Of a DNA stretch of 64,000 bases, positions 41,977 to 45,719 are shown in pieces. This DNA comes from Microbacterium sp. Nx66 (lineage in GTDB: Bacteria > Actinomycetota > Actinomycetes > Actinomycetales > Microbacteriaceae): NCBI RefSeq assembly GCF_904066215.1, contig NZ_LR880474.1, positions 3,286,001 to 3,350,000 of the forward strand. Reading direction: 5' to 3'. Within the stretch, counting starts at the first letter, position 1. Each line of letters opens with the position of its first letter. The position numbers were made by a program, and so were the translations under genes. Below the pieces are notes generated by a model. That model was not told the origin of the DNA, did not search any database, and saw only the letters and a program-made list of their open reading frames with translations.

Positions 41977-42327
41977 ATGGCCGACATCGTCCCGTTCCCC
42001 CGCGCCCCGCATCCCGTCCGTCCGCCGTCCAACGGACCCGAACCGCTGTGGCGCGAGATGCTCGGCGATCAGCTGCGACGGCGACGCCATGACCGCGGGG
42101 AGACACTCAGCGAGACCGCGGAGAAGGCCGGGGTCTCGCCGCAGTACCTCTCCGAGGTCGAGCGCGGCCGGAAGGAGCCGTCCAGCGAGATGATCGCCGC
42201 GATCGCCGGCGCGCTGGACTCCTCCCTCGTGGAGCTCACGAGCGCGGTCGCCGAGGAGCTTCGTCAGGCCACCCCTGCCGCGGCGGCGGTCTCGACCTCC
42301 CGCGGCGCCTTCGCTCTGGCCGCCTGA
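41977..42327 (+). CDS. XRE-family regulator, ClgR/PopR-like
   Basis: 116 residues. Helix-turn-helix domain 26-85 with [31 protein letters not shown] sequence, resembling the ClgR/PopR regulators of clp genes. Leaderless start (TATCGT, 5 nt spacing). It is convergent with two clpP genes, as PopR accompanies clpP3-clpP4 in Streptomyces (from memory). Control of these clpP genes is inference. Confidence 0.85.
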
Positions 42328-42397: not shown

Positions 42398-43000
42398 TCA
42401 TCGTGCATCCGGATCACGGGGACCGAGCACGGTGTCGATGAGGCCGTACTCGAGAGCCGCGGCGGCGGTGAAGACCCGGTCCCGGTCGGTGTCGACGCGG
42501 AGCTCCGCGAGCGCGCGACCGCTGTGCCGGGCCAGGATCGACTCCATGTCGGCCCGCACCCGCACGACCTCGTCGGCCGCGAGGATGAGGTCCGGGATGG
42601 CTCCGCGTGACTGCCCGGCCGGCTGATGCAGCACGATGCGCGCGTGGGCGAGGGCCGCTCGCTCCCCCGGCGCCCCCGCCGCGACGAGCAGCGCCGCCGG
42701 ACCGATGGCCTGCCCGACGCAGGTCGTCGCGATCCGCGGGCGGATGTGCTGCATGGTGTCGTAGATCGCCAGCGCGGCACCGGGATCCCCACCCTCGCTG
42801 TTGATGTAGAACTGCACGGCGGTCTCCGGGCTGTCCGCGTCGAGGTGCAGGAGCTGCGCGATGAGGGCGTTCGCGACTCCCGCATCGATGCCGGTTCCGA
42901 GGTAGATGACGCGCTCGGCGAGCAGATGCGAGTAGACGTCCATCACCCGCTCACCCCGCGGGTGCTGCGCGATGACGTGGGGGATCGTGTAGCTGCTCAT
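42398..43000 (-). CDS. ClpP-like subunit without catalytic serine
   Basis: 200-residue ClpP homologue. Catalytic His125 (V-L-H-Q-P) and the Asp region T-D-R-D are conserved, but the serine motif G-Q-A-A-S-M-G-A is replaced by G96-Q-A-I-G100-P-A-A: the nucleophile is Gly. It may assemble as an inactive ring or ring member, like ClpR of cyanobacteria and plastids. ATG overlaps the active clpP stop by four bases, so both are made together. Confidence 0.88.
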   Translation of the reverse strand: MSSYTIPHVIAQHPRGERVMDVYSHLLAERVIYLGTGIDAGVANALIAQLLHLDADSPETAVQFYINSEGGDPGAALAIYDTMQHIRPRIATTCVGQAIGPAALLVAAGAPGERAALAHARIVLHQPAGQSRGAIPDLILAADEVVRVRADMESILARHSGRALAELRVDTDRDRVFTAAAALEYGLIDTVLGPRDPDAR

Positions 43001-43611
43001 ACGTCCGCCCCCAGTCCGACCCGCGCACGACGGCGGGGCATGATCTCCGCCGCGGACCGCACGATCTCGTCGATGAACCCGTAGCCCTGCGCCTCGGCCG
43101 CGGTGTACCAGCGATCGTGGAGGGAGTCCTCGAAGATCCGCGCGAGGGGCTGACCGGTGTCGTCGGCGATGAGGCCGAGGACGGTGTCGCGCATGTGCCG
43201 GAGGTCGTCGGCCTGCGCCTCGATCTCCACCGCCGATCCGCCGATCCCCGCCGAGCCCTGGTGCATGAGGATCCGGGCGTGCGGGAGAGCGCGCCGCTTG
43301 CCCTTCGTCCCCGCGGAGAGCAGGAACTGTCCCGCGCTGCAGGCGAGGCCGAGGGCGAGGGTGGAAACGTCGTTGGGGATGAGGTGCATGAGGTCGCGGA
43401 TCGCCAGCATCGACGGCACAGAGCCGCCTGGCGAGTGGATCCAGAGGGCGATGTCGGTCGTCGGGTCCTCCGCGGCGAGGCCGAGGAGCTGGGTCATCAG
43501 AAGGGTGCCGTTGTCGTCGTCGAGGGCGCCGTCGAGGACGAGCACCCGTTCGTGGAACAGGGCGCGCCGGGCCTCGGGGCCGAACTGCGGGAGAGGGGTG
43601 TCTTCGCTCAT
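42997..43611 (-). CDS. clpP: ATP-dependent Clp protease proteolytic subunit (active type)
   Basis: 204 residues. Catalytic triad intact by alignment: Ser92 in G-L-A-C-S-A-G, His117 in L-M-H-Q-G, and Asp in L-H-D-R-W-Y. The usual H-Q-P is H-Q-G here. First gene of a two-gene clpP operon, translation coupled to a second subunit lacking the serine. Distinct from the canonical clpP1P2 that most actinobacteria keep elsewhere beside clpX/tig (inference). Confidence 0.9.
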   Translation of the reverse strand: MSEDTPLPQFGPEARRALFHERVLVLDGALDDDNGTLLMTQLLGLAAEDPTTDIALWIHSPGGSVPSMLAIRDLMHLIPNDVSTLALGLACSAGQFLLSAGTKGKRRALPHARILMHQGSAGIGGSAVEIEAQADDLRHMRDTVLGLIADDTGQPLARIFEDSLHDRWYTAAEAQGYGFIDEIVRSAAEIMPRRRARVGLGADV

Positions 43612-43747
43612 GTCCCCAGCATCCGGCTCCGCTCAGGACCGCGGGAGCGAATCCGCCCGGAGCAGATCCGCTGTGAGCGGCGGCGCGTGCATCCGTCCGA
43701 AAACCCGGCGTAACACCGCCGACGCACGAGCCGCCTAGCCTCGGGGC

Positions 43748-44312: not shown

Positions 44313-45719
44313 TCAGCGGTGGGCGACGCGGTGGCCGATCCAGAACCCGATCGCGATCAGGCCGACGAGACCGATCCCGAGGATCCACGGGAGCAGAGAG
44401 GGCGCGGCGCCCGCCGTGGCCGTCGCGAGGGTGCCCGAACCGTCGGCGATACGTCCGTTGCCGGCCGCGAGGTCGGCGGCACCGGCGTCGAGCCTCGCGC
44501 CTCCGCTCGCAAGGGCCCCGGAGCCCTCGGCCACCGCGTCGGCGCCGGTGCGGAGTTCGCTCATCCCGGATCGGAGGTCACCGGCACCCGACTGCAGCGC
44601 GCCGACGCCCGTGGCCAGCGACCCGGCGCCGTCGTCGAGCCGCGCCGCGCCGGCGCTGAGCTCCGCGGTGCCGGAGTACAGCGACGACGCCCCGGTCGAG
44701 AGGGTCTGCAGCCCGGACGAGAGATCCGCCGCACCTGCCGCGAGCCGGGAGGTGCCGTCCTGCAGTGTCTGCGTTCCGGCGACCAGGGCGGGAGCGCCCT
44801 TCGGGGAGACCAGCACCACGGTCCCCGGCCACCCTTTCGAGGGGTCGCCGTTGATGAGCGCACCGACGCCCGCCGTGACGCGTGCGGAGCCGTCGGCGGC
44901 GCCGATGAGTCCCTGTGCGAGGCCCGGAGCAGCCGCGGCGGGGCCGGCCAGCGCGCCGACCTGCTTCTCGACACCGGCGGCGAGCGTCGCGAGCTGCTGG
45001 AGCTGCACATCGGCGGGATTCGCGGCGAGGAGACCTTGCAGACCGGCGGCGAGCGTCCGCGCATTGCCGGGAGCGCTCGTGGCGACGCCCGTCAGCAGCG
45101 TCTGCGTGTCCGGATGGGCGAGCTTCTGCACGTCGGCGCTCACTCCGGCGCGCAGCGTGGTGCTCAGAGTCGTCGCGCCCTCGAGCACGCCGTTCGCGTA
45201 CCGGTGCGCGCCGTCGACGCCCGCGGCGAGCGTGGTCGCTCCCGCGACGAGCTCTCGGGCCCCGGCATCCGCCGCCGCCATCTTCGCCGCGAGCTCCTGC
45301 GACCCGGCGAGCGCCGTCTGCGCTCCGCCGCTCACTCGTCCTGCACCGTCGAGAGCGGTGGCGGCTCCCGCCGCGAGGGTTCCGGCGCCCTCGGCGAGCG
45401 TCGTGGCGCCCGCGGCGGCCGTCGTCGCCCCGTCGCTCAGCTTCTCGGAACCCTGCTGCGCCGTCGCCGTGCCTGCCGCGAGATCCTGCGTGCCCGCGGC
45501 CAGGTCGTCGGCTCCCGCGGCGAGGTCGGAGGCACCGGCGGCGAGGTCCGCGGATCCGCCCCGCGCGGTGGTCGTGCCGTCCGCGAGCTCCGCGGCCCCA
45601 GCGGAGACCTTGCTCATCGTGGCGAAGAACAGCAGCACCATCGCCGCCAGCAGAAGGCTGAGGACGATCACGGCGATGCGCATGCCGAGGCCGTGCGCGT
45701 GGGTCTTTTCACTCGTCAT
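44313..45719 (-). CDS. X-X-X-Leu-X-X-Gly heptad-repeat membrane protein
   Basis: 468 residues. Membrane helices at about 14-34 and 447-465, and between them dozens of seven-residue units of the form xxxLxxG (e.g. A-A-G-A-S-D-L), as in YhgE/Pip-type proteins and RND-linked MmpL-like partners. The repeats form a long extracytoplasmic rod. Function unknown; YhgE relatives act as phage receptors or export-linked proteins. A GTG/ATG alternative start is not needed: ATG 45719. Confidence 0.88.
   Translation of the reverse strand: MTSEKTHAHGLGMRIAVIVLSLLLAAMVLLFFATMSKVSAGAAELADGTTTARGGSADLAAGASDLAAGADDLAAGTQDLAAGTATAQQGSEKLSDGATTAAAGATTLAEGAGTLAAGAATALDGAGRVSGGAQTALAGSQELAAKMAAADAGARELVAGATTLAAGVDGAHRYANGVLEGATTLSTTLRAGVSADVQKLAHPDTQTLLTGVATSAPGNARTLAAGLQGLLAANPADVQLQQLATLAAGVEKQVGALAGPAAAAPGLAQGLIGAADGSARVTAGVGALINGDPSKGWPGTVVLVSPKGAPALVAGTQTLQDGTSRLAAGAADLSSGLQTLSTGASSLYSGTAELSAGAARLDDGAGSLATGVGALQSGAGDLRSGMSELRTGADAVAEGSGALASGGARLDAGAADLAAGNGRIADGSGTLATATAGAAPSLLPWILGIGLVGLIAIGFWIGHRVAHR

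Follow-up and report, generated by a model that had tools for sequence, protein, structure and literature searches.

A pair of overlapping clpP genes in Microbacterium sp. Nx66 encodes one ClpP with a complete catalytic triad (P3) and one with glycine at the position of the catalytic serine (P4). The pair lies in a 64,000-nucleotide stretch of the genome (the window), and the features of the locus are listed in Table 1. Its sequence features place the locus in the actinomycete clpP3clpP4/PopR backup type: the adjacent pair is distinct from clpP1P2, a PopR-like gene with an AA end lies beside it, and a predicted operator is found upstream. We favor the reading, with a probability of roughly 0.7, that these genes encode a PopR-controlled backup core, in which a cutting P3 ring would be combined with a maintained, non-catalytic P4 ring that docks shared ATPases.

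Table 1. Features of the clpP3clpP4-like locus, numbered from the first base of the window.
Feature	Position	Strand	Description
P3, clpP3-like gene	42997..43611	-	204 aa; Ser92-His117-Asp166 (ORF and alignments)
P4, clpP4-like gene	42398..43000	-	200 aa; Gly100, His125, Asp174; pocket Tyr65 and His85
Gly100 codon (GGT) of P4	42701..42703	-	At the catalytic Ser position (alignments)
ATGA stop/start overlap of P3 and P4	42997..43000	-	4 bp
PopR/ClgR-like XRE regulator	41977..42327	+	116 aa; convergent with P4; C-terminus FALAA
PopR-type double palindrome, GCCGCTCACAGCGGATCTGCTCCGGGCGGA	43652..43681	-	Predicted operator; first base 70 nt upstream of the P3 ATG

Both proteins match the Pfam CLP_protease family (PF00574), P3 with 177 bits and P4 with 198.5 bits. 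Two phmmer alignments place Gly100 of P4 opposite the catalytic Ser of solved ClpPs, with GQAIGPAA standing against GQAASMGA. When 211 pairs were aligned together with ClpP1 and ClpP2 of the source genome, P4 read G-H-D, and P3, ClpP1, and ClpP2 read S-H-D. The Ser-His-Asp triad is complete in P3, where Ser92 is encoded by AGC (43338-43336), and incomplete in P4 (Gly100-His125-Asp174). The original prediction held that the second clpP gene has Gly100 at the serine position with His125 and Asp remaining, and that the first keeps Ser92, His117, and Asp. Coordinates and alignments agree with the former claim and the alignment with the latter, the Asp being Asp166. Mapping position 100 onto ClpP, as was also proposed, puts Gly100 at the catalytic Ser position with no Ser nearby; residues 92-110 of P4 contain no Ser that could be a substitute nucleophile. 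Cys94 was considered as an alternative nucleophile and rejected because this position is also Cys in P4s with intact triads (e.g., at loci L144 and L145). P4 is predicted to adopt the ClpP fold (AlphaFold pLDDT of 88; TM of about 0.9 to ClpP chains). The overlap of the inactive-type P4 with its active-type partner gene was claimed as well, and the two do share a 4-bp ATGA, which suggests translational coupling. The source genome (3.46 Mb, two contigs) has four PF00574 genes in two pairs. The second pair is a housekeeping clpP1P2 elsewhere in the genome, with both triads complete.

The genus was surveyed in 59 genomes, including the source genome, which were drawn from a larger group and are in some cases incomplete. 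The locus was present in 24 of the 59, with P4 identities of 71-100%. In 23 of these loci, Gly occupies the nucleophile position of P4, with His replaced by Asn in one of them; the last locus (L027) has Ser. The original prediction had named relatives with Ser as a sign of a private mutation or a sequencing error; since 23 of 24 loci have Gly, the change is not private to the source strain. The closest named database protein to P4, at 95% identity, is from Microbacterium. Among the best 120 homologues listed for the window P4, 110 are G-H-D, seven A-H-D, two S-H-D, and one G-H-E. All four Gly codons are used at the P4 site in 58 G-H-D loci (GGC 32, GGA 10, GGG 9, GGT 7). By the Nei-Gojobori method, dN/dS for the window P4 is 0.069-0.113 against nine relatives in the genus (87-94% identity, dS 0.5-0.8) and 0.16-0.24 against four more distant relatives. 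The values for P3 are similar (0.085-0.132 for the nine near relatives and 0.145-0.295 for the four distant ones). Purifying selection acts on the P4 gene as a whole, and this whole-gene dN/dS is not evidence of selection on Gly itself.

Early decay of P4 into a pseudogene, or a sequencing error behind its Gly, is extremely improbable. One further genus genome (G025) does contain a decayed copy of the pair and, therefore, the locus is capable of decay. However, the P4 frame in the window is open and its product has a predicted ClpP fold. Private mutation, error, or decay was ruled out for the window P4 by the Gly in 23 of 24 genus loci, the variety of its codons, and the dN/dS of 0.069-0.113. 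The earlier view of P4 as a maintained gene and not a decaying one is borne out by the same data together with the open frame. The decayed copy (L233; G025:C16, approximately 1518-2544) is a broken clpP3clpP4 pair with matches split between frames and with a stop. The nucleophile position of its P4 is Ala, and it provides an example of decay at this locus.

Altogether, 216 loci (L005-L220) were parsed, of which 215 had an adjacent ClpP pair; the exception, L206, had one P2-type ClpP and no adjacent pair. Four repeats were dropped, and the remaining 211 loci were classed by best score to the source genome's four ClpPs as P4-type (184) or P2-type (27). At least one triad residue is missing in 159 of the 184 distinct P4-type loci, a count that is not a prevalence because the loci were picked by similarity to the window P4 or an Embleya P4. 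The states seen were A-H-D (66), G-H-D (58), S-H-D (25), and S-G-D (10), with W-H-T (3), S-H-N (3), E-H-N (3), G-N-D (2), G-H-E (2), E-H-H (2), and ten singles being rarer. The original prediction of a loss limited to the nucleophile is right for the window P4 and fails for some relatives, in which His or Asp is gone. By source, the triad is lost in 23 of 24 genus loci, 75 of 78 named GTDB loci, and 59 of 80 P4-type loci of the class sample, whose 21 P2-type loci were set apart from this count. If the loci are classed by a PopR-like neighbor instead, 139 of 171 have lost the triad. P3 partners are S-H-D at 183 of the 184 loci, and the remaining one (L087) is truncated, starting at a contig end. 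P2-type loci are S-H-D in 26 of 27 cases and have a PopR-like neighbor in nine of 27. The Embleya P4 has 117 further homologues among the best listed, which are A-H-D (98), G-H-D (15), or S-H-D (4).

PopR is described as a ClgR paralogue and an activator of clpP3clpP4 that ClpP1P2 degrades, and ClpP1P2-dependent degradation of PopR is reported to silence clpP3clpP4 expression in S. lividans (passages in PMC9765437). Its site is given as TCTGCC-N3-GGCGAATCTGCC-N3-GGCAGA in a review that also draws attention to the terminal alanines of regulators of this kind (passages in PMC9775585). The best model for the XRE regulator in the window is NCBIfam ClgR (78.6 bits, below the cut-off of 170). A better ClgR candidate lies elsewhere in the genome (L227; G000:C1:1508129-1508365, plus strand; 101 bits, still below the cut-off), which fits the window gene as a ClgR paralogue.

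For the operator scan, a region of at most 290 nt about the aligned start of P3 was taken from 209 loci, with 100 mononucleotide shuffles as the control. The candidate in the window matches 17 of the 24 specified bases, and one of 100 shuffles equaled it. All 24 bases are matched at four Streptomyces-like loci (L184, L186, L200, and L201); the f24/g35 genomes were taken as Streptomyces from the named homologues of L184. The score was above all 100 shuffles at 134 of 182 P4-type loci (48 were not) and at 10 of 27 P2-type loci. The best match lies 69-72 nt upstream of P3 in all 24 genus loci, and it beats all shuffles in 19 of them but not in the other five. The C-terminus of the PopR-like protein is -AA at 154 of the 162 P4-type loci having such a gene; none was found in the available stretch at 22 of 184. 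From the operator and the -LAA end, the XRE gene is likely the regulator of the pair. Separately, three P1P2-type loci of family f23 (L203, L204, and L207) have a PopR-type double site (21-22 of 24 bases) 159-200 nt upstream of the first clpP.

A profile search found no Clp ATPase among six neighboring ORFs (39.8-47.1 kb), which encode a rhodanese, GTP cyclohydrolase II, a MarR protein, a thioesterase, a Cys/Met enzyme, and a protein with no family above the cut-off. The genome does encode a strong ClpX and Clp_N proteins outside the window. Therefore, a dedicated ATPase was rejected, and P3 and P4 most likely borrow the genome's shared ATPases. The original prediction of a dedicated, regulated Clp machine stands as far as regulation is concerned, the XRE gene being the likely regulator. 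It is less apt as to dedication, with no ATPase among the six neighboring ORFs. The backup type itself is a known one. One of the Clp_N matches (L226; G000:C1:46639-46785, minus strand) is a single domain in a 407-aa frame and may represent a short Clp_N protein; a separate 846-aa frame has two such domains. The window also encodes, at 44313-45719 on the minus strand, a 468-aa protein with short Ala/Gly-rich repeats and what by eye are membrane-like ends, and its Pfam match is weak and below the cut-off.

P3 and P4 also differ at the docking pocket. The docking residues of Streptomyces ClpP2 are S94, Y96, and Y116, and its catalytic residue is S131 (passage in PMC9765437); their spacing equals that of columns 63, 65, 85, and 100 of the window P4. 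Across the 159 dead P4s, the position of E. coli Y76 (column 65) is Tyr in 155, and that of E. coli F96 (column 85) is His, Tyr, or Phe in 158 (His in 78). At the F96 position, 132 of their 159 P3 partners have Leu, as does the window P3, and 26 of 27 ClpP1-type partners have Phe or Tyr. This Leu is already found in P3 at 18 of 25 loci with an intact P4; therefore, the loss of docking in P3 probably preceded the loss of the P4 triad. The residue before the catalytic Arg-Asp, which is part of an oligomerization sensor, is Asp in 157 of 159 dead P4s and Leu in 134 of 159 P3 partners. P4 shows almost no variation at four N-terminal residues (V9, R18, D21, and S24), which P3 either lacks or replaces, and the window P3 is without this motif. 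ClpP1-type partners likewise lack or replace them, with a gap at the V9 column in 27 of 27, so their absence is a mark of the first subunit generally and is not specific to P3.

We propose the following mechanism for the backup core. Housekeeping ClpP1P2 would normally destroy PopR via its C-terminal -AA. If ClpP1P2 failed, PopR would build up, bind the double operator, and switch on P3 and P4, which would form one heterotetradecamer with split labor. The P3 ring, with its triad kept and its pocket aromatic mostly lost, would cut. The P4 ring, with its hydrophobic pocket and N-terminal motif, would not cut but would serve as the dock for the shared ClpX or ClpC. Because docking fell to P4, its triad would have been dispensable and lost several times by different substitutions, with the rest of the protein staying under selection. 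This proposal is built on sequence, triad states, conservation, whole-gene selection, the operator, and the pocket pattern, together with passages in papers on relatives for PopR turnover and the docking/cutting split in ClpP1P2; from these we infer the assembly of P3P4, docking by P4, the inactivity of P4, and the order of events. In S. hawaiiensis ClpP1P2, casein degradation is fully retained after a Ser-to-Ala mutation in ClpP2, the subunit on which all three ATPases dock (passages in PMC9765437). Only the catalysis of ClpP1 is needed in M. tuberculosis (passage in PMC9067928). By analogy, P4 fits the role of ClpP2 with catalysis removed. A counterpoint is that 25 of the 184 P4-type proteins keep S-H-D, including L027 in the genus and three more nested in the dead clade described below. 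Also counted against the proposal are the His at the F96 pocket position in 78 of the 159 dead P4s, the window operator with its 17 of 24 bases, and the 22 P4-type loci at which no PopR-like gene was found.

P4 could also be a regulatory pseudo-subunit that joins housekeeping ClpP1 or ClpP2 rings, besides or instead of P3, and damps or redirects them when PopR accumulates. Apart from P4 itself, ClpP2 is the ClpP to which P4 scores closest, and the docking residues kept by P4 are of the ClpP2 type; moreover, Streptomyces ClpP-ADEP, a further ClpP, pairs with both ClpP1 and ClpP2 (passage in PMC12607617). However, 215 of 216 parsed loci (all but L206) have an adjacent ClpP pair, and P3 keeps its triad in every complete partner, as expected for a cutting partner. 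Both observations are still compatible with extra partners, and we consider this alternative unlikely.

A Streptomyces clpP3clpP4 operon with PopR was reportedly described by Viala in 2000 and 2002. The present locus is like that system in its adjacent P3 and P4, its convergent PopR-like gene with an AA end, its double operator of the same type, and its separate clpP1P2 (passages in PMC9765437, PMC12607617, and PMC9775585). The two differ in the residue lost: in Streptomyces P4, Ser is retained and Gly replaces His, as in 118 of the best 120 homologues listed out of 7889 matched (one has Ala and one is intact), whereas the window P4 keeps His and has Gly for Ser. As in mycobacterial and Streptomyces ClpP1P2, one ring is expected to cut and the other to dock ATPases (passages in PMC9067928 and PMC9765437). 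In the ClpP1P2 described there, neither subunit has lost its triad and mutants revealed the split, whereas the presumed docking subunit in the window has lost its triad naturally. Cyanobacterial and plastid ClpR offers a further parallel, being a ClpP paralogue that has an incomplete triad and works with an active ClpP. In Synechococcus, ClpR and ClpP3 occur together in one ring (4+3; passages in PMC4673316 for both points), whereas P4 is ClpP2-like, actinomycete, and accompanied by a PopR-like regulator. The label ClpR-like in the original prediction suits how P4 may work, with an incomplete triad beside an active-type ClpP, as a label of function rather than of descent. The best NCBIfam score of P4 is with the general ClpP model (220.8 bits); it reaches 155.8 bits with NF009204 (cut-off 263), which we take to be the ClpR model, and the tree contained no ClpR.

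One sentence in PMC9067928 mentions a clpP allele without catalytic residues in S. coelicolor, Nocardia asteroides, and Leptospira interrogans and compares it to ClpR. The phenomenon itself is already in print in that passage, and the mention of the S. coelicolor and Nocardia alleles lessens the value of the present finding. These two alleles very probably belong to the same P4 family. That passage does not name the subunit, the link to PopR, or the different routes. In a search of open-licence literature, with subscription papers outside its scope, the passages retrieved held no assignment to PopR-controlled P4, no several routes, and no P3/P4 complementarity. For a stated triad loss in Streptomyces ClpP4, only the passage in PMC9067928, among those retrieved, mentioned such alleles. 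ClpP asymmetry was earlier shown with engineered ClpP1P2 mutants; the natural triad losses in P4 look like several repeats of a similar experiment. The question of what a dead ClpP subunit does, which ClpR also poses, becomes testable in a two-gene system with natural intact-triad relatives as controls. The answer may bear on how actinomycetes survive ClpP-directed antibiotics.

The history of the loss was traced on trees that were built for 104 representatives without the triad columns and in which many forks are weak. At least nine changes between intact and lost were counted in the quick and the careful search alike, and by site the careful tree gave six at the nucleophile, five at His, and seven at Asp. 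The window falls within a 48-row clade (bootstrap 100) with 44 lost rows and four Ser rows (L027, L078, L079, and L090). Forcing the 44 dead rows into one clade was rejected (AU p of 7e-6), although this constraint group was named after the tree had been seen. The four rows encode Ser by TCG or TCC, a single step away from Ala codons. However, TCN also encodes the Ser of intact P4s that fall outside this clade; therefore, a regain of Ser in the four nested rows is possible but unproven.

These separate triad changes would also be expected if the loss were actively selected, for example because a non-acylatable subunit escapes covalent ClpP inhibitors made by other actinomycetes and the backup works when ClpP1P2 is poisoned. 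Passages in the literature point the same way: beta-lactones kill S. coelicolor without clpP3 and clpP4 (review PMC9775585), and ClpP3P4 is called ADEP-insensitive (PMC12607617). However, every complete P3 partner keeps the active-site Ser, so the core should remain inhibitable. Relaxation of a dispensable site accounts for repeated loss equally well, and Ser may return within the dead clade. We therefore regard selection for inhibitor escape as quite unlikely. A broader version of the backup core is tentative and rather doubtful. It holds that hard-wired cores with one cutting ring evolved repeatedly, with P3 docking lost early, the P4 triad lost later in separate lineages (six residues replace Ser, and others lost His or Asp), and Ser perhaps regained in a few. 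Seven sites in place of fourteen would then have been selected, through inhibitor escape or slower or longer products, and would be more than tolerated decay. As to where such pairs are carried, those at L115 and L116 lie on an Embleya replicon of 5.7 Mb that is listed as a plasmid and on a 386-kb Tsukamurella plasmid, both pairs being of the Ala type, which suggests that the pair may travel.
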